Shown here in pieces: positions 1 to 58,013 of a DNA stretch of 58,013 nucleotides. Below the pieces are notes generated by a model, which worked only from the letters and a program-made list of their open reading frames with translations, searched no databases and had not been told where the DNA came from. This DNA comes from a virus. The stretch lies in IMG/VR virus record IMGVR_UViG_3300025671_000073, positions 1 to 58,013 of that record; one strand, 5' to 3'. The stretch's first letter is position 1. The number at the start of each line of letters is the position of its first letter. Made by a program: the position numbers and the translations under genes.

Positions 1-773
1 CGGGTCTTGAAGCTACCGCCTCCCCGGGTTCCGTTACGGTCTCGACCGACGCCAACGCCAACGTAACGACGGGTAGTCTTGAAGCTACCGCCTCCCCGGG
101 TTCCGTTACGGTCTCGGCCAACGCGAATGTTTCCCCCTCGGGACTTGAAGCTACCGCCTCCCCGGGCTCCGTTACGGTCTCGACCGACGCCAACGCCAAC
201 GTAACGACGGGTAGTCTTGAAGCTACCGCCTCCCCGGGCTCCGTTACGGTCTCGACCGACGCCAACGCCAACGTAACGACGGGTAGTCTTGAAGCTACCG
301 CCTCCCCGGGTTCAGTTACGGTCTCGGCCAACGCGAATGTTTCCCCCTCGGGACTTGAAGCTACCGCCTCCCCGGGCTCCGTTACGGTCTCGGCCAACGC
401 GAATGTTTCCCCCTCGGGACTTGAAGCTACCGCCTCCCCGGGTTCAGTTACGGTCCCGGAAGACGCGAATGTTTCCCCCTCGGGACTTGAAGCCACCGCC
501 TCCCCGGGTTCAGTTACAGTCGCAATCGACGTCGACGCCCCTGTCACGGGTCTCGAGACCACCGCCTCCCCGGGTTCCGTTACGGTCTCGACCGACGCGA
601 ATGTCGTTGTTCTTGGTGCACAGGCTCGCGGCCTAGTGAGCGGTGTCTTTATTTGGAGCCGACTTGATCCGGACACCAACCCCGACTGGACGCTTGTTGA
701 TCCGGACACCAACCCCGACTGGACGCTTGTTGATCCGGACACCAACCCCGACTGGACCGACGTCGCAGCCTAG
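1..773 (+). CDS. Tandem-repeat tail protein, C-terminal part (continues from 57476)
   Basis: The frame is open from the first base, with codons starting at position 3, to a TAG at 771-773, and contains no internal start. It encodes nine near-identical units of about 22-24 residues (GLEATASPGSVTVS followed by DANVSPS or DANANVTTG), then a short unique stretch ending VSGVFIWSRL and three copies of DPDTNPDWTLV, and finishes DVAA. The 57476 ORF ends in the same repeat, and joining base 58013 to base 1 keeps the frame, so I read these as two halves of one gene of about 436 codons. Low-complexity Ser/Thr/Ala/Val repeats fit a beta-rich extended tail or surface fibre. Function is not known; the repeat number may be collapsed by assembly. 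Confidence 0.75.
   Translation, partial: GLEATASPGSVTVSTDANANVTTGSLEATASPGSVTVSANANVSPSGLEATASPGSVTVSTDANANVTTGSLEATASPGSVTVSTDANANVTTGSLEATASPGSVTVSANANVSPSGLEATASPGSVTVSANANVSPSGLEATASPGSVTVPEDANVSPSGLEATASPGSVTVAIDVDAPVTGLETTASPGSVTVSTDANVVVLGAQARGLVSGVFIWSRLDPDTNPDWTLVDPDTNPDWTLVDPDTNPDWTDVAA
3..620 (+). repeat. In-frame tandem repeat, about 66-75 bp period, nine units
   Basis: Each unit begins with CTTGAAGCTACCGCCTC and contains GGTTCCGTTACGGTCTCG. Spacers alternate between a short form encoding NVSPSG and a longer form encoding NANVTTGS. The last units at about 420-620 have diverged (VPEDANV, VAIDVDAPV, LETTASPG). The same array continues at 57651-58013. Multiples of three preserve the frame, so unit gain or loss changes protein length without breaking it. 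Confidence 0.95.
666..755 (+). repeat. 33-bp in-frame direct repeat, three copies
   Basis: Three consecutive 33-bp units encode DPDTNPDWTLV, the third truncated to DPDTNPDWT before the final DVAA. The units are almost identical at DNA level, suggesting recent duplication. They form the C-terminal tip of the repeat tail protein. Confidence 0.9.
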
Positions 774-32347: not shown

Positions 32348-32583
32348 TAGTAACGCTCGTCGAAGTATCCGGGCGGCACGTCGCCGTCCATCTCCATCTG
32401 GATTTCGCGCTCGATGCGCTCCTGTCGCCGCCGTGTGTCCTCCGGCGACTCGAGCTGCACGCATTGGGACTCTGGGAACATCTCCCGGATCTCGTCCCAT
32501 GCCTCGTCGCGGCTGGCTGCGGTGAAGGTGTGACCGAACTCGCATCCGGTCTCGTCGATCAATACTGCGTGATACTGTGTCAT
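32347..32583 (-). CDS. Hypothetical small protein
   Basis: 78 residues from ATG 32583. The alpha/beta start (YHAVLIDETGCEFGHTFTAA) and following helix (SRDEAWDEIREMFPES) resemble small phage proteins with an unassigned fold. It overlaps both neighbours, so they share one mRNA. Confidence 0.65.
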   Translation of the reverse strand: MTQYHAVLIDETGCEFGHTFTAASRDEAWDEIREMFPESQCVQLESPEDTRRRQERIEREIQMEMDGDVPPGYFDERY

Positions 32584-32837
32584 TGGAAGTCTCCTTTGAT
32601 GTAAGCGTGCGCGCTTTTGTGTGTGTTGAAGCATTGTGACAGGTCGTGCCGCTTCGTGTTGGGCAGCTCGATCACGGTGACGCCGTAAAGCTGCCCGTCG
32701 CCGAGTATGTTATCCCCTCGCGACAGCTCCCACACCATTTTGCCGCGCTTGCCGTAGTCCATGACGGTGGGGGTCATGAAGTTCACCTTGCCGTTGTACA
32801 CCCTGCGGAACACAGCCCTGATTTCGTCATGTTGCAT
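32580..32837 (-). CDS. Hypothetical small protein
   Basis: 85 residues from ATG 32837 with GAGAGAGACG upstream. It contains DEIRAVFRRVYNGKVNFMTP and a C-terminal HKSAHAYIKGDF. Mixed alpha/beta; no family recognised. Preceded by an intergenic hairpin at 32864-32887. Confidence 0.65.
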   Translation of the reverse strand: MQHDEIRAVFRRVYNGKVNFMTPTVMDYGKRGKMVWELSRGDNILGDGQLYGVTVIELPNTKRHDLSQCFNTHKSAHAYIKGDFQ

Positions 32838-32895
32838 GTCGTCTCTCTCCTCTGTGAGTAAGTGCCCGGCGACGGTGGCCGCCGGGCGGTGGTGG

Positions 32896-33204
32896 TTAGG
32901 CGTCTGCGAGATACTCGGCAGGCGTAGGCAGATACGGCTTGGTGATGCCGTAAGCTTCGAGCCACTCGGGCGTGGCTGCGACCAGCGTGCCCCACCGCTC
33001 GATCTCTGACCTGTAGGTGTCGCCACCCTCGAAGCTGCCGTAGGTTGCGTCGGACTTGGCCGCCACGAGCCATCGCGCGTAGGGGTCCTTGTCCTCCGAA
33101 CTTGGCGTCTTGTAGGTCTTGACGACGTGCCACGTCAGGTCGCCGCAGACGTAGATGGCGTAGGGCGACATGGTCGGGCGTGATTTAGCGAATGGGTTAG
33201 GCAT
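32896..33204 (-). CDS. Hypothetical protein
   Basis: 102 residues, ATG overlapping the upstream stop. The N-terminus MPNPFAKSRPTMSPYAIYVC leads into beta strands (DLTWHVVKTYKTP), and a helix (SEIERWGTLVAATPEWLEAY) follows. It looks like a single small domain with no catalytic motif. Confidence 0.65.
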   Translation of the reverse strand: MPNPFAKSRPTMSPYAIYVCGDLTWHVVKTYKTPSSEDKDPYARWLVAAKSDATYGSFEGGDTYRSEIERWGTLVAATPEWLEAYGITKPYLPTPAEYLADA

Positions 33205-33361
33205 CTTCGGTCTCCTTTGTGAGTTCTGCTGCGAGGTTCCACGCCATGCCGGCCGCGGTCCAGAGGTGCGGCCTGTCCTCCGGTGCGTGCCGCATGATCC
33301 ACTCCTCGATCACCTTCCAGCTGTCGGGCGTGTTGAACAGGCCCATCGGTTCGATTTGCAT
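33197..33361 (-). CDS. Hypothetical small protein (54 residues)
   Basis: It starts MQIEPMGLFNTPDSWKVIEE and ends with a helix containing AAGMAWNLAAELTKETEDA. Its TAA overlaps the ATG of the following gene (33204), which supports translation as a coupled pair. Function unknown. Confidence 0.65.
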   Translation of the reverse strand: MQIEPMGLFNTPDSWKVIEEWIMRHAPEDRPHLWTAAGMAWNLAAELTKETEDA

Positions 33362-33370
33362 TGTAGTGCT

Positions 33371-33407
33371 CCTTGTGTGTTGTGGGGCGACGTTGCCGCC
33401 GCCCCGG
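33371..33407. repeat. 37-bp intergenic repeat, copy 1 (hairpin)
   Basis: Identical over 37 bp to 33604-33640. It contains a 6-bp stem GGGGCG/CGCCCC around a GC-rich loop. It lies just upstream of the 33361 start and just after the 33413 stop on the minus strand. There is no T-tract, so it is more likely an mRNA-stabilising or processing hairpin than a terminator. Confidence 0.85.
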
Positions 33408-33412
33408 GTTGA

Positions 33413-33595
33413 TTACCAGATAACTTCGGCGTCTTTTGCCCGGATGATTGAGCAGATTTCGTATGTCGAACCCGGCTCCACCTCTTCGAGATTGAAAGCT
33501 ATATCCATCAGCTGGTCCAGCGTTAGGTCTAGTTCACCATCGACAGCGGTTAACATCGCCGGTCCGTCGACAATCCACGTGATGTAGTAGGTCAT
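33413..33595 (-). CDS. Hypothetical small protein
   Basis: 60 residues from ATG 33595, preceded by GGAAGAAC. Acidic alpha/beta: YYITWIVDGPAMLTAVDGEL, then LDQLMDIAFNLEEV. It sits between the two copies of the 37-bp hairpin repeat. No family recognised. Confidence 0.65.
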   Translation of the reverse strand: MTYYITWIVDGPAMLTAVDGELDLTLDQLMDIAFNLEEVEPGSTYEICSIIRAKDAEVIW

Positions 33596-33603
33596 TTGTT
33601 CTT

Positions 33604-33640
33604 CCTTGTGTGTTGTGGGGCGACGTTGCCGCCGCCCCGG
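33604..33640. repeat. 37-bp intergenic repeat, copy 2 (hairpin)
   Basis: Exact copy of 33371-33407, in the same orientation and the same relative place (after a leftward gene stop and before the next start). The duplication of a whole intergenic element shows that these hairpins move or are selected as units. Confidence 0.85.
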
Positions 33641-33645
33641 TTGGG

Positions 33646-33927
33646 TTAAGCTTCGATCTTGTCGGCTTGCTCCTGAGCATCGTTCAGGCCGTCGGTCAGG
33701 TGCTGGATCGTCGACTTGGTAAGCCAGTCGCCCTCGCACCGCATCGCATCGCCCGCCTTGCCGATCGCTTCGACCAGCTGGGTGTGCAGGTCTGCCGCAT
33801 ACCAGCGGTCCGCGCCCTTGCGAGCCACCTCACCCTGCAGAATGGTGCAGAGTGTGCGCATCTCGTAGACGGTCATCTCGATCCGAACCGGAACGTCGCC
33901 TGCGGTGGTGTATCCATATTTAGCCAT
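33646..33927 (-). CDS. Hypothetical protein
   Basis: 93 residues from ATG 33927, with GGAGAAC upstream. The first part is beta (KYGYTTAGDVPVRIEMTVYE), followed by helices (RTLCTILQGEVARKG and QLVEAIGKAGDAM). It may be a small DNA- or protein-binding domain. No family recognised. Confidence 0.65.
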   Translation of the reverse strand: MAKYGYTTAGDVPVRIEMTVYEMRTLCTILQGEVARKGADRWYAADLHTQLVEAIGKAGDAMRCEGDWLTKSTIQHLTDGLNDAQEQADKIEA

Positions 33928-33961
33928 CGTGTGTTCTCCTATGTGCGATGGTTGGTAGTGA

Positions 33962-33987
33962 GCCGCCCGACGGAAGTGCCGGGCGGC
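33962..33987. other. Intergenic hairpin in the leftward early operon
   Basis: An 8-bp perfect stem (arm GCCGCCCG) lies in the gap between 33995 and 33927. It belongs to a series with 32128-32147, 32864-32887 and the two 37-bp repeats: where this operon has a real gap between genes, a GC-rich hairpin fills it. Confidence 0.7.
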
Positions 33988-33994
33988 AGGGTGA

Positions 33995-34279
33995 TCAGAA
34001 TTCGATTTCGTCCGCGTAGGCGCGAGACCGAACGCTGGCCATGTTGCGGATCGACGACCAGTCGCCGTGATCGATCGCGTGCGTCAGGATCGTGCCGTGC
34101 TCGGCCTCCCACGCTCGGACAAAGAGCATCGCGTCGCAGTCCTCCTCAAGGTAGAGCATGTCGCCCTCGCGGTAGCTGTAAGCGCTGAAGTCGCCCTCTG
34201 TCAGGCCGACCGATGCAGCCTGTGCCTCGGACACCGCTAACCAGCCGTGACCTGCGTCGAAGTAGAATGTGAATCGCAT
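33995..34279 (-). CDS. Hypothetical protein, first gene of leftward early operon
   Basis: 94 residues from ATG 34279 with AGAGGAGA upstream. Beta strands (RFTFYFDAGHGWLAV) and an acidic middle are visible; no family recognised. Its leader reaches back into the large inverted repeat at 34303-34566, whose left arm probably carries the promoter for this operon. Confidence 0.65.
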   Translation of the reverse strand: MRFTFYFDAGHGWLAVSEAQAASVGLTEGDFSAYSYREGDMLYLEEDCDAMLFVRAWEAEHGTILTHAIDHGDWSSIRNMASVRSRAYADEIEF

Positions 34280-34302
34280 GGATAAGTCTCCTCTGTTTGC
34301 GA
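34280..34302 (-). promoter_or_regulatory. Leader of the 33995-34279 gene
   Basis: Short untranslated stretch with the ribosome site AGAGGAGA (minus strand). Together with 34303-35514 it is the longest noncoding region of the window. Confidence 0.5.
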
Positions 34303-34566
34303 ACACCACACAACATGAGTCGTGGTGTATCCCGAACCCGCACTGAATTTTTTACAATGTCAAAGTGACCTGTGCCGCCGAAGGCACACAGGTCACTCAG
34401 CTCGGGTTTTTCGTCCGCCGTGACCTAGCCACAAGCACCTTTATCGTGAGGTGTCGGTGCTCCGCTGACACGCGAGACCACGGACGGAAAAACCCGGCAC
34501 TTTGACATTGTAAAAAATTCGGGGCCATCTGGAAGATACACTACCGCACTCATGTTGTTGTTGTGT
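34303..34566. repeat. Extended inverted repeat with divergent promoter-like arms
   Basis: A 23-bp arm at 34345-34367 is the exact reverse complement of 34498-34520. Farther out, both arms also share GATACAC-C/T-AC and ACTCATGTTG (minus strand 34311-34331, plus strand 34535-34558), at nearly equal spacing. Each arm reads outward TTTGACATTGTAAAAAATTC, so TTGACA points left to the early operon and right to the structured RNA. TTGACA to GATACA is 26-27 bp, too long for a normal sigma70 promoter. Inside are a 15-bp interrupted stem (34403-34417 with 34481-34496) and hairpin GTGACCTGTG/CACAGGTCAC (34365-34396). An origin or an activator-dependent divergent promoter is possible. Confidence 0.75.
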
Positions 34567-35107
34567 GAAGAAACACGGTCGACGAGGGCAGGGCAGCGAC
34601 AAAGGCGAACTCAACTCCGTGGTTCAAGTCCCAAGCAGATCCCGCCCCAAGCGGGATTGCAGGGACGCAGGACCACGTAGTTGTGAGAGCCGGAGCATTG
34701 GTTGATGAAGCACAGCCATGGGGTGTCGGTTGACGGCGCGGGTGCATGTCCCTGTCGCTGACGACCCTTGTGCAACGATTAGGCGACGACGCAACCGACA
34801 CTTCATGGTTGTGTGAAGTCATCCAATGTGGACGCTGCCCTGTCCGAGGAGATCGTTTCGCCAAGACGTGCACCGGTCTTTTTACTCGCAACGCTGGCCA
34901 ACGTAGCCGGAGGATCCAAGGACAGGCAATGTCCTTGGTCGACTGCCGTTCGACGACGGCTCGATGACCGAGGGCTCGATGCCCTCGGTCATCGAATCAG
35001 GATGGTTGCGCGCGACTAGCGCGCTCCGCTGATACAACCTCTCGGGGGTTACTCCAGCTGTTCAGTGTCCGCGGCAGCGGGTCGGAAAGGGGGTCGACCC
35101 CCCTTTT
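34547..35107 (+). ncRNA. Probable large structured RNA (about 560 nt)
   Basis: No convincing ORF. P1: 34586-34598 pairs with 34833-34845 (13 bp, one G-U). It encloses P2, 34619-34676, three stacked helices GTGGT, GTCCC and ATCCCGC with their complements, and P3, 34704-34823, with GTGTCGGTTG/CAACCGACAC plus CCATG and GATGA pairings: a three-way junction. Then follow CCAAGGAC/GTCCTTGG (34916-34938), GCCGT/ACGGC (34945-34960), a perfect 15-bp hairpin (34961-34995) and a hairpin closed by GGTTG/CAACC (35004-35039). The 3' end may be the hairpin AAAGGGGG-TCGA-CCCCCC plus TTTT (35086-35107). Ends are inferred. Size and phage setting recall GOLLD or ROOL RNAs, but identity is untested. The strand could be the opposite. 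Confidence 0.65.
35085..35107 (+). terminator. Possible intrinsic terminator of the structured RNA
   Basis: GAAAGGGGG, a TCGA loop and CCCCCC followed by TTTT. The stem is strong but the T-tract is short (four) and the A/T flanks can extend pairing, so it might act in both directions. Confidence 0.4.
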
Positions 35108-35265
35108 CGGCCCCCCTCCGGTGGAGCTGAGCGCCTTTATTGCTGGTTTCGTAAATTCAATGCCCAGCAATTTCATTCCGTGCTTGGCATACCCCCTGTT
35201 CTCCAGAAAACGCCCCTGTCAGAAAACCGCTCAAAAATATGCGCATATTTTTTCATTCCGACTTG

Positions 35266-35294
35266 TTGACAACCCACAATCATTCCGCTACATT
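35266..35294 (+). promoter_or_regulatory. Sigma70-type promoter
   Basis: TTGACA (35266-35271), 17-bp spacer, TACATT (35289-35294). The -35 is perfect and the spacing optimal. The surrounding ACTTGTTG..AACCCACAA recurs at 36776-36793 before another promoter, so it may also be bound by a phage factor. Transcription would start near 35301. Confidence 0.75.
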
Positions 35295-35300
35295 CAACCC

Positions 35301-35473
35301 CAGAACCAAGGTCCAAGACCCGAGCGCCGAGGCCCCAGAGGCCCACTGAGCGCCCATCCCGTCTCCGAGGCTCCCGAAGCCCGGACCTTGGTTCTCCCAT
35401 GCTCAACCGGAGACTCTCCTCCCTTGTTTCCGGTATGCCTCACCTGCCCCGGCCTTTGCGCCGGGGCTTTTTT
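35301..35473 (+). ncRNA. Small RNA or attenuated leader, about 173 nt
   Basis: This is the segment between a good promoter (35266-35294) and a strong intrinsic terminator (35446-35473). Its 5' end AGAACCAAGGTCC (35302-35314) is the perfect complement of 35383-35395, closing a large hairpin. The interior contains small GC stems such as GGCT/AGCC. No start codon with ribosome site is seen. It could be an independent small RNA with a closed-stem shape like 6S-type RNAs, or a leader controlling the late operon that begins at 35515. Confidence 0.6.
35446..35473 (+). terminator. Intrinsic terminator
   Basis: GCCCCGGC, 6-nt loop, GCCGGGGC, then TTTTTT: a textbook Rho-independent terminator. It stands 41 bp before the first late gene, so late transcription must read through it or start after it. 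Confidence 0.9.
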
Positions 35474-35514
35474 CTGGTAGGGTTTGCGGGACTTGACCCT
35501 CGGACCTTGGACCT

Positions 35515-36768
35515 ATGGCTGATCGAAACCCCCAAATCCCCGACCTCGGCGAAATGTTGGGCCTCCCTTCCGAGGAGCTGCAACGCCCTGTTCAACGGGG
35601 GGACCTGCTGGATTACTACCTTGGCCCGACGGGTATCCCCGACAGGTTGCGGGCGGCGAACGAGGTGTTGAACCCGATTGTTGCCCTCTCGGATGCAGGT
35701 CAGGACCTTCGCCGTGGGGATTATGTTGGCGCGCTGACCAACACGGCTGCGGCCGCAGTTCCAATTGTTGGCGGCCGCATGGCCATCAAGGCCGCTCGTG
35801 GTTTGCCGACACTTGCTCCCCGACAGTATGACGAGGCAGCCTCTGCGGTGACGGAGACCCTGACGGGCGTGACATCTCCCAAATCAACTTCTGCGACGGA
35901 CATGACGCGCCGCCAGTTTTTGACGGGTGTAGCCGCCGCTGGCGGCACTGCGGCCATGGGCCCAGACATTGTGGAGTTGGCCCGAAAGGCCGCCCCGGAC
36001 ATTGCGCGGCAGGCAGGTCCGTGGGAGGCGTTGGTCGCCCGAGGCAAAAACATTTCGGACAACCCCATACCGGGCCCGTTTTCAGACGCCGCTAACAAAA
36101 TTCCTTACGAGGAGTTAATGCGGATGGAGGAACTTAGACGCATCGAACTTGACGATCTGCAGGACGATGTCTATGAGACGGCGCTTTCCGACCCCGAGGG
36201 TTTCGCAGACACTATTTTGCGGAAAACCGACCCCGAAGACACGCTGGAAAAAATCGGAATCAACCGGCGGATGCAAGATGTTTTTCGAAGATCGGGCCTA
36301 GATTACTATAATCTTTCGCAAGGCGCTTTAAGAGAATACCCGGAGGAGGTCGCAAAGAGGGCCAATGTTTCAGTGGAGGACGTGAGCCGATATCTTGAAG
36401 AGATGGACGAGGACTATCAAGACTACCTTGCGATGAAGGGGTACGACAGGCTCGTAGATTACAACCCGGGACTTGCCGAAAAACTGGATAGAACCGCTAT
36501 CGGGATTGCTCGGGACAAGCTTCTTGACGGCGATATTGACGAGGTGAACAAGCTTATCGGTAATGCCCCTACGCAATTTATAGGCGTGAGCAATGACGAT
36601 TTTCAGCTTTGGAAGGCGCTCGAACAAAAGCGCCGTCAACTGGCGGATGACCAAATTGAAATGGCTCTTGACGTTGGCGCAATCGACGACGAGATGGCGG
36701 AGAATCTCAGAAAAGAACTGAGTGGACTCAGTGCGTCGGATATTTTTTATGAGACAGGCGCTTTTTAA
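35515..36768 (+). CDS. Putative virion protein with an internal twin-arginine-like motif
   Basis: 417 residues from ATG 35515; the ribosome site is weak (GGACC only). Residues 1-125 are a helical region with AALTNTAAAAVPIVGG. At residue 130 comes MTRRQFLTGVAAAGGTAAMG, which has the form of a Tat signal peptide but is internal unless translation starts at 35902. The rest is acidic and helical (EELMRMEELRRIELDDLQDD). First gene of the late operon after a terminator. I do not recognise a family. Confidence 0.6.
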   Translation: MADRNPQIPDLGEMLGLPSEELQRPVQRGDLLDYYLGPTGIPDRLRAANEVLNPIVALSDAGQDLRRGDYVGALTNTAAAAVPIVGGRMAIKAARGLPTLAPRQYDEAASAVTETLTGVTSPKSTSATDMTRRQFLTGVAAAGGTAAMGPDIVELARKAAPDIARQAGPWEALVARGKNISDNPIPGPFSDAANKIPYEELMRMEELRRIELDDLQDDVYETALSDPEGFADTILRKTDPEDTLEKIGINRRMQDVFRRSGLDYYNLSQGALREYPEEVAKRANVSVEDVSRYLEEMDEDYQDYLAMKGYDRLVDYNPGLAEKLDRTAIGIARDKLLDGDIDEVNKLIGNAPTQFIGVSNDDFQLWKALEQKRRQLADDQIEMALDVGAIDDEMAENLRKELSGLSASDIFYETGAF

Positions 36769-36779
36769 AGGCCCACTTG

Positions 36780-36808
36780 TTGCAAACCCACAACCCGTAA
36801 CCTATAGT
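36780..36808 (+). promoter_or_regulatory. Sigma70-type promoter
   Basis: TTGCAA (36780-36785), 17-bp spacer, TATAGT (36803-36808). It is preceded by the same ACTTGTTG..AACCCACAA context as the 35266 promoter. It drives the small gene at 36836 and perhaps the packaging genes. Confidence 0.7.
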
Positions 36809-36835
36809 CTCTCCAGTCAACCACTGGAGAAACCC

Positions 36836-37114
36836 ATGAACATGTTCAAGAACGACCCTGAGTTTGCCAAGATGGAAGAGCAGGCCAACGAGCAGCTGGA
36901 AAAGCTGCTGAGAGCCACGGTCCAAGATTATGAGGCCTATATGGCAGATCGGGACGCCGCGGCCGCCGATATGTCGGCATTGGTCAAGCAGGCCAAGGAA
37001 AACGGCCTGAACATCAAGGCCTTCAAGCGGTTGATCGCGGAGCGGAAGCGAGATCGCGAAGAGGTGATCGAAGAGCAGCGGATGCTGGAACAGTATCGTA
37101 GTCTTTTGTTTTGA
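36836..37114 (+). CDS. Small coiled-coil protein
   Basis: 92 residues from ATG 36836 with GGAG upstream. It is almost wholly helical and charged (AKMEEQANEQLEKLLRATVQ, then RLIAERKRDREEVIEEQRML). It directly follows its own promoter, so it may be expressed strongly or early. Function unknown. Confidence 0.65.
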   Translation: MNMFKNDPEFAKMEEQANEQLEKLLRATVQDYEAYMADRDAAAADMSALVKQAKENGLNIKAFKRLIAERKRDREEVIEEQRMLEQYRSLLF

Positions 37115-47992: not shown

Positions 47993-48072
47993 GTTTGCAG
48001 CTCATGTATCCTACCCCCATCCCTGACAGCCCGCATGGTGCGCGCTGACACTAGCCACGACAGGAGACTCCA

Positions 48073-48585
48073 ATGGCTAATACGACTTTCTCTGGGCCGG
48101 TACGCTCGGAAAATGGTTTCAAGTCCATCACCAAAAACTCGACGACCGGTGCAATCACCGAGATCACGACCATGGGCGGAGCTCCGGTAGCTCTCGCTGA
48201 CGGCGATGTGACCCTGACCAATGCGACCCACAGCGGCCGCGTTCTGGTTGTTCCGGATGGCGGACAGGACAACACCTACACGCTGCCCACCCCGGTCGCA
48301 GGTGCAATGTTCACCTTCGTCTACGGCGGCGCAGCAGCTGACGCCACGGACTTTATCGTGGACGCAGGTTCGGACACCAACTTCTTCGTGGGCAATGTCG
48401 CATTCAACGACACCGACGATGGCGCAGCCTCTGTTGTTTTTGCTGACGGCGATTCGAACAGTGTTCTGCAGGTCAATGTTCCGGGGTCCGCGGTGATCAA
48501 TGTGATGGCCAAGGACGGCACCAACTGGTACGTCTGGGGTTCGGTCACAGGCGCCACTGCCCCCGCCTTCTCCGACCAAGCGTAA
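48073..48585 (+). CDS. Beta-rich structural protein
   Basis: 170 residues, CAGGAGAC upstream. Ser/Thr/Asp-rich beta repeats (TLTNATHSGRVLVVPDG, FTFVYGGAAADATDFIVDAG) ending in WYVWGSVTGATAPAF. Such proteins after the capsid gene are often head decoration or fibre proteins. Function not certain. Confidence 0.7.
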   Translation: MANTTFSGPVRSENGFKSITKNSTTGAITEITTMGGAPVALADGDVTLTNATHSGRVLVVPDGGQDNTYTLPTPVAGAMFTFVYGGAAADATDFIVDAGSDTNFFVGNVAFNDTDDGAASVVFADGDSNSVLQVNVPGSAVINVMAKDGTNWYVWGSVTGATAPAFSDQA

Positions 48586-56969: not shown

Positions 56970-57472
56970 CAAACGACCAGCCCGTAGAGTTTCCCTACAC
57001 AATCGGGCAATTCCGTCGTGATAACCCGCAAACCAGCTTCCCCAAAGTCATCCCTGTCGAGATCATGCGGCGGCATGGAATGTTCCCCGTAGAGGAGCTG
57101 AAAAAGCCGAACTTCGACCCTTTGGTTCAGAACCTCAAGCGGGACGACATGCCCCACAAGGAAGTCATCCGCCTTAAGGCCGAGGCAGATGCAACCGATC
57201 CGTTTACAGGTGAAGTGGACCAAGCGCAGGTGGGCCAACCCATTTACGGCAACAAGTGGCTGATCGGCTACACTGTCGCCAACAAGCCGCAGGACGAGGC
57301 TGAAGAGGCTGTCAGAAACCAACGCAACCGCCTCCTTGCCGACACCGACTGGATGGCCCTGAGCGACAACACCATGACGCCCGAATGGGCTACCTACAGA
57401 CAAGCACTTCGTGATATAACTGAGCAAACAGGTTTTCCATATTCGGTGAACTGGCCCACTAAACCGGAGTAA
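56954..57472 (+). CDS. Tail assembly chaperone-like protein, second copy
   Basis: 172 residues. The C-terminal domain (NQRNRLLADTDWMALSDNTM, then WATYRQALRDITEQTGFPYS, WPTKPE) is clearly paralogous to 56472. The first 110 residues (YVKITNDQPVEFPYTIGQFR, then RDNPQTSFPK) differ, suggesting a different fibre partner. It lies directly before the repeat tail protein. Confidence 0.8.
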   Translation: MYVKITNDQPVEFPYTIGQFRRDNPQTSFPKVIPVEIMRRHGMFPVEELKKPNFDPLVQNLKRDDMPHKEVIRLKAEADATDPFTGEVDQAQVGQPIYGNKWLIGYTVANKPQDEAEEAVRNQRNRLLADTDWMALSDNTMTPEWATYRQALRDITEQTGFPYSVNWPTKPE

Positions 57473-57475
57473 CCA

Positions 57476-58013
57476 ATGCTCGGCTTCTCACCCATATCAG
57501 CCGCGACTCTAGGTGATGATAATGGAGGTGTGGCACCGGTACCAATCGAATCTAAGCATTATTTTGGACTTTTGATTGGTGGGCCTTTAGCCTCAGCGCC
57601 TCTAGCGGATGATGGGGTTGGCGCTGAGGGTGTAGTTGTTTCGCCGGTGGGCGTTGAAGCTACCGCCTCTCCGGGTTCCGTTACGGTCTCGGCCGACGCG
57701 AATGTTTCCCCTTCGGGTCTTGAAGCTACCGCCTCCCCGGGTTCCGTTACGGTCTCGACCGACGCGAATGTTTCGCCGACGGGTCTTGAAGCTACCGCCT
57801 CTCCGGGTTCCGTTACGGTCTCGGCCGACGCGAATGTTTCCCCTTCGGGTCTTGAAGCTACCGCCTCTCCGGGTTCCGTTACGGTCTCGGCCGACGCCAA
57901 CGCCAACGTAACGACGGGTCTTGAAGCTACCGCCTCTCCGGGTTCCGTTACGGTCTCGGCCGACGCGAATGTTTCCCCTTCGGGTCTTGAAGCTACCGCC
58001 TCTCCGGGTTCCG
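57476..58013 (+). CDS. Tandem-repeat tail protein, N-terminal part (continues at base 1)
   Basis: ATG 57476, three bases after the previous stop. The first 58 residues (MLGFSPISAATLGDDNGGVA, then HYFGLLIGGPLASAPL) are unique. Then repeats of about 22 residues begin (GVEATASPGSVTVSADANV) and run to the window end in open frame. It joins in frame to 1-773 if the molecule is circular. The unique start plus repeat shaft plus distinct DPDTNPDWT end fits a fibre or long tail-surface protein. Confidence 0.75.
   Translation, partial: MLGFSPISAATLGDDNGGVAPVPIESKHYFGLLIGGPLASAPLADDGVGAEGVVVSPVGVEATASPGSVTVSADANVSPSGLEATASPGSVTVSTDANVSPTGLEATASPGSVTVSADANVSPSGLEATASPGSVTVSADANANVTTGLEATASPGSVTVSADANVSPSGLEATASPGS
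57651..58013 (+). repeat. In-frame tandem repeat, 66-bp period, continues across window ends
   Basis: Five full units and one partial unit starting at about 57651, 57717, 57783, 57849, 57918 and 57984. These use CTCTCCGGGTTCCG more often than the left-end units, which use CTCCCCGGG, so the two sides have their own recent homogenisation. The true number of units between the two ends is unknown. Confidence 0.95.

Follow-up and report, generated by a model that had tools for sequence, protein, structure and literature searches.

A putative giant structured RNA of an uncatalogued family at the divergent gene junction of a marine phage

Genomic setting and coding potential

We analysed a 58,013-nt stretch of viral DNA (IMG/VR record IMGVR_UViG_3300025671_000073, hereafter the window), which is a near-complete genome of a marine tailed phage encoding a DNA polymerase, a primase and helicases. 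Among cultured phages, Pelagibacter phage HTVC027P is the closest in TerL (about 61%). Both ends of the window (1-770 and 57470-58013) lie in one tandem-repeat gene, probably structural, whose frame is open across the joined ends; the genome is therefore probably complete and was cut within the repeat by assembly. The locus of interest is a structured block at the place where leftward genes meet the rightward late genes (TerL, portal and head), a divergent junction at which the GC skew changes. A physical DNA end at the block, near which contigs L006 and L007 stop, was unsupported, in that the window runs through this place and its own ends fall in the tandem-repeat frame. The leftward flanking gene (33995-34309, − strand) has homologues that flank the RNA in the related loci L010, L014, L015 and L018 (tblastn), and the first large rightward gene (35515-36768, + strand) encodes a protein of 417 aa without a significant Pfam or PHROG family. 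A GapR-like DNA-binding protein is encoded among the first late genes (36722-37114, + strand; PF10073, E = 4e-8).

The region is GC-rich and contains several open frames. No frame of the block, including that at 34550-34891 on the − strand, matched a Pfam or PHROG family, and the sole tblastn matches of four block frames were to the conserved hairpin DNA of relatives. A coding block was therefore rejected, because its frames lack family matches and are not conserved beyond the DNA of the hairpin cassette described below; the block is noncoding. A multi-copy element was likewise rejected, since the block is single copy.

The structured block and its parts

The original prediction, made from the sequence alone, had placed a large noncoding RNA at 34547-35107. 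The structured block is wider than this, spanning ~34303-35120 (~820 nt); the predicted start was too late, as a second large domain (34303-34568) lies upstream. The + strand of 34290-35130 (841 nt) folds at −443 kcal/mol against a shuffled mean of −316 (z = −12.1), and the − strand at −399 kcal/mol (z = −10.3); on either strand, none of 20 shuffles was as low as the native fold. In a sliding fold scan of 32500-37000, the signal was strong at the block, and neighbours of like composition were ordinary. Given these results and the strong folds of relatives, chance folding was rejected. The + strand folds better than the − strand by 44 kcal/mol, a bias that makes it look selected, and the twofold number of G-U pairs in the window block (28 on the + strand versus 14 on the −) points to the same strand. 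Both strands nonetheless fold unusually well, and the G-U excess on the + strand is uneven across 18 members, so that the strand and the molecule are less certain for some relatives.

All parts of the element lie on the + strand. The 5′ domain (34303-34568) was recognised from inverted arms and from the minimum-energy and centroid folds, and is closed by a P1-like long-range helix (34307-34331/34535-34567). Within it, the fold contains an inner helix (34340-34525) with 28-nt arms that are 93% complementary (34340-34367/34498-34525), enclosing a hairpin (34364-34397; arms 34364-34374/34387-34397) and a further helix (34403-34412/34487-34496). A segment of this domain (34398-34461) has an 80% relative in L294, a carrier of the GNA domain and core described below; the 5′ domains of the window and L294 as a whole align poorly. 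The middle domain (34586-34845), seen as inverted repeats and in the fold, is closed by a 13-pair stem (34586-34598/34833-34845, one pair being G-U) for which there are no covariation data, and holds two hairpin arms. One is the AAGCAG hairpin (34619-34676), in which a conserved AAGCAG..TGCAG flanks an inner stem that is fully replaced in relatives; the other, long arm (34704-34823) is the inverted repeat I1, 37 nt and 76% complementary, also present in the fold.

Further downstream lies a cassette comprising hairpin H1 (34916-34938), which relatives form at the same place with different pairs, an H-type pseudoknot (34939-34960; 34939-34942/34950-34953 and 34945-34949/34956-34960) and hairpin H3 (34961-34995), a perfect 15-bp hairpin in the window. 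Hairpins at 34996-35037 fall in a gap of the L010/L014 alignment, about where relatives often carry the GNA domain. The 3′ core GGGGTTACT..AGGGGGTCGACCCCCCTTTT (35043-35110) would be the 3′ end of the RNA; no covariation supported base pairing in its 58 nt beyond the G/C runs. The block ends in a terminator-like G/C hairpin (35072-35120). Every helix that the original prediction had named, namely the closing 13-bp stem, the two stem-loops that it encloses and the perfect 15-bp hairpin, is thus present in the sequence; the terminator-like end also held, though a simple terminator scanner did not score it as canonical, and so did the absence of a credible gene.

The AT-rich stretch after the core (35160-35290) contains repeated TTTCATTCCG-like motifs, found in relatives too, which are possible regulator sites. 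The AAAAATATGCGCATATTTTTTCATTCCG element (35233-35260, no strand assigned) likewise lies downstream of the core in relatives and may be a regulator or promoter site. Between the RNA and the late genes is a promoter-like site (TTGACA-17-TACATT, 35266-35294, + strand), and a strong terminator-like hairpin (35446-35467, + strand) precedes the first late gene; both are consensus matches only. The interval 35266-35475 (+ strand), which has this promoter-like site, a 13-bp inverted repeat (35302-35314/35383-35395) and the strong terminator-like hairpin, could specify a second transcript of ~170 nt; its terminator gave weak, sub-threshold sRNA matches.

Relatives, module order and compensatory changes

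Relatives were first fetched via TerL; the core motif was read off, and further motif scans added members. The 3′ ~220 nt of L010 and L014 align with the window at 71-74%, and their 5′ parts do not align. L015, L018 and L072 have equally extreme folds with little shared sequence, and fold z values range from −9 to −17 in L010, L015, L018, L072, L115 and L136. A 3′ core of the form GGGGTWACT-N-CCCCCWWCCCCC is shared by 37 viral contigs, in most of which it measures exactly 58 nt, and lies at a divergent junction; in L027 and L123 it is preceded by only a short noncoding stretch and the fold signal is absent. At least two of four modules were found in 46 distinct loci (window included), always in the order P1, H1-pseudoknot-H3 cassette, GNA domain and GGGGTWACT..CCCCC 3′ core, and these loci typically have leftward genes on one side and late or packaging genes, pointing rightward, on the other. 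Since members supplied the module motifs used in the searches, the presence of the modules is partly by construction; their order, spacing and covariation are not. The window meets this plan with the cassette (34916-34995) followed by the core (35045), and also has the AAGCAG hairpin and the P1-like helix. It lacks the GNA domain between cassette and core, as do L010, L014, L018 and L115; this domain is therefore an optional rather than a defining module. Phage and plasmid records searched by blastn gave nothing useful for the window block, nor did blastn with L115, L072 and L100. Bacterial cassette homologues were rejected: none of 35 matches had both H1 and H3. At the corresponding position in HTVC027P itself (L090:7700-8140), an unannotated gap rich in GC and in hairpins separates the leftward from the rightward genes; it has no cassette match.

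The pseudoknot, the AAGCAG hairpin and the 15-bp hairpin are backed by compensatory changes. In the cassette, H1, the element 5′-YCGA-YT-GCNGT-TCGR-NN-ACN′GC-3′ and H3 follow one another without spacers, and a compact H-type pseudoknot arises from pairing of YCGA with the hairpin-loop sequence TCGR. Across 17 distinct sequences (alignment A6), 99.4% of pseudoknot cells are paired, with 19 double changes; none of 500 shuffles equalled this, and slid versions were far worse. The first pair is C-G or T-A, or G-C in L285, and in L181 the third pair is flipped (TCCA/TGGA); the scan pattern for the cassette had left the R position and both N positions free. In the AAGCAG hairpin (A3), 98.6% of the cells of 14 pairs are paired and seven pairs show double changes (0/500 shuffles), and in H3 (A7) four pairs show double changes, with one pair broken in four of five rows. 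The P1 long-range helix was recovered in nine relatives (−36 to −45 kcal/mol), and the outer N-N′ pair of the GNA domain is variously C-G, G-C, T-A or A-T, its inner NN/NN pairs holding in 63 of 65 cases. These alignments are small (5 to 17 rows) and the shuffle controls leave shared ancestry in; the 5′ halves share little sequence, and covariation covers only the middle and 3′ parts. The earlier claim of selected structure, as opposed to random GC-rich DNA, is nevertheless supported by covariation, by the genomic position in relatives and by the + strand bias. An absence of covariation and a conserved reading frame, named in advance as refuting outcomes, were both checked and neither came true. 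Transcription and function, which the same claim implied, remain inferred, as there are no transcript data.

Some modules also occur outside the family. The GNA domain (CCCGNAGGGCNNAGAC..GGCTNNGTTCAYGA), an uncatalogued and strongly covarying element of ~90 nt, was seen at L193:7873, L240:1176, L184:2721, L185:1619 and other places, some near NinB-like genes. Viral contigs with this domain number 118 and represent many phage types; two microvirus records also have it, as do 3 genomes of 398 sampled from a single bacterial phylum. In AT-rich phages (L174, L176 and their kin), P1 and the GNA domain lie directly upstream of the gene for the terminase small subunit. A third phage type has the cassette without the core (L134:118-185; L135:5960-6030, − strand), upstream of terminase and portal genes. 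Because modules are found alone in other phages, the giant RNAs appear to have been put together from units that are active elsewhere as well.

At gathering score, the only Rfam family in the window was Mu-gpT-DE, outside the block; it is a known phage RNA located upstream of head genes (48021-48075, + strand; RF03012, 59.6 bits). A search of the block up to E = 10 gave only weak, chance-like matches far below gathering scores, as did permissive searches of the L115 and L072 blocks, and L134-L136 had no match up to E = 1. Searched at gathering score, 24 loci of relatives yielded nothing but Mu-gpT-DE elsewhere in L072. Neither the block nor its relatives matched the Rfam models of GOLLD, ROOL, OLE, HEARO or introns. 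The suggestion of a divergent GOLLD or ROOL, or else a new class, thus failed in its first half and held in its second. No tRNA was detected in the window or in 19 loci. An earlier description was not found in the literature searched; subscription papers and preprints lay mostly outside this search, and a prior description is possible.

Interpretation and comparison with known RNAs

What might this element be? The fold signal, the compensatory changes, the recurring module order, the genomic position and the absence from Rfam are shown, and the existence of an uncatalogued RNA family is very likely. Our preferred reading, to which we assign a probability of about 0.6, is that the window carries a + strand noncoding RNA gene of ~820 nt, a divergent member of an uncatalogued, modular giant-RNA family, acting as a trans-acting scaffold; transcription, oligomerisation and action in trans are all inferred. 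Given a real RNA family, the balance tips modestly towards the scaffold role, itself an inference. Transcription would run rightward from the divergent junction, starting near 34300, where no promoter-like match was found at the presumed 5′ end, and would end at the GGGGTTACT..CCCCCC-TTTT core near 35110. The late region of phage lambda has a late promoter, a short transcript and a terminator, and the layout of the window resembles it; the promoter-like site and terminator between the block and the late genes suggest that the giant RNA forms a separate unit. Because that promoter-like site and a second terminator precede the late genes, the RNA is probably transcribed as an independent unit that acts in trans. 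Its most likely mode of action resembles that of GOLLD and ROOL, with the folded RNA serving as a scaffold or multimer: the 3′ half (H1-pseudoknot-H3 and core) is more conserved, and the 5′ half, which changes fast, may hold or display a partner late in infection.

Among mechanisms, none of which has been shown, we rank the trans-acting scaffold above a cis role in late transcription, and the latter above a role as single-stranded DNA. The cis role, which remains possible, would have the nascent RNA control late transcription, the cassette or core acting on its own polymerase as HK022 put does, or the region serving as an attenuator before the late operon. In its favour, loci with only a short giant part still keep the core (L027, L123), structural genes of L134 and L135 have just the cassette upstream, and the region is separated from the late genes by terminator-like hairpins. 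Against it, 820 nt of structure far exceeds the ~70 nt of put (PMC9378689), a promoter-like site follows the core, and the core is absent from L134-type phages. We consider it unlikely that the folded strand acts as single-stranded DNA, serving at the divergent junction as a replication origin or as a site for primase or packaging. A divergent junction with a change of GC skew is a usual site of an origin, and the best support for this view comes from the frequent C(GNA)G triloops and from the related GNA domain in noncoding gaps of single-stranded-DNA microviruses. C(GNA)G triloops are very stable mini-hairpins in DNA. However, the GNA domain is missing from the window, there is no sequence likeness to the complementary-strand origins of G4 and alpha3, the G-U excess on the + strand of the window and the GNRA-type loops fit RNA, and the microvirus gaps are also transcribed. 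A chance fold in GC-rich DNA, or a gene that was missed, to which the GC-richness and the several open frames might be taken to point, is all but excluded by the shuffles (0/20), the ordinary neighbours, the covariation and the lack of frame conservation beyond the cassette DNA; it stands refuted unless the alignments are artefactual.

A bolder reading, which we put forward with less than even confidence, is a new giant phage RNA class that serves a shared step of the late or packaging switch and is built from interchangeable modules, which can also move singly among unrelated phages, single-stranded-DNA microviruses included. Only a handful of giant ornate RNAs have been described from phages, and their role is an open question, so that a further, apparently unrelated family is an independent case for comparison. 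Its value lies in a covariation-backed pseudoknot, in modules common to several phage groups and in a constant place at the early/late junction, and its natural short forms and module swaps are ready tests of which part does what.

How does the element compare with known systems? Identity with the G4/alpha3 complementary-strand origin was rejected for want of sequence likeness. G4-type origins of microviruses are similar in having hairpins in a phage noncoding gap, and the GNA domain of relatives occurs in microvirus gaps, but the window lacks this domain. The put RNA of HK022 (~70 nt, two stem-loops, early genes; PMC9378689), which renders RNA polymerase terminator-resistant in cis, shares adjoining hairpins near a phage operon. 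The window instead has a pseudoknot between two hairpins, embedded in a fold of 820 nt where early and late genes meet, and does not fit a ~70-nt RNA with two stem-loops. ROOL is also phage-borne, ~650 nt and highly structured with pseudoknots; the window family differs in having no Rfam match and no tRNA island. GOLLD is a phage and prophage RNA of ~800 nt with an ornate fold, a conserved 3′ and a variable 5′ part, and pseudoknots (PMC12286853). GOLLD and ROOL often lie near tRNAs (PMC12286853), unlike the window family. The Rfam model of GOLLD is unmatched, the modules are different, and cage formation is a GOLLD trait without evidence here. The size, phage setting, ornate fold and pseudoknot are alike, and the plan of a conserved 3′ and a variable 5′ part is shared, a general likeness that does not prove kinship. 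Because the size, the phage setting and this plan match, the most likely reading is that the element fits the giant ornate phage RNAs as a kind, outside the known families, and resembles GOLLD and ROOL in kind only.
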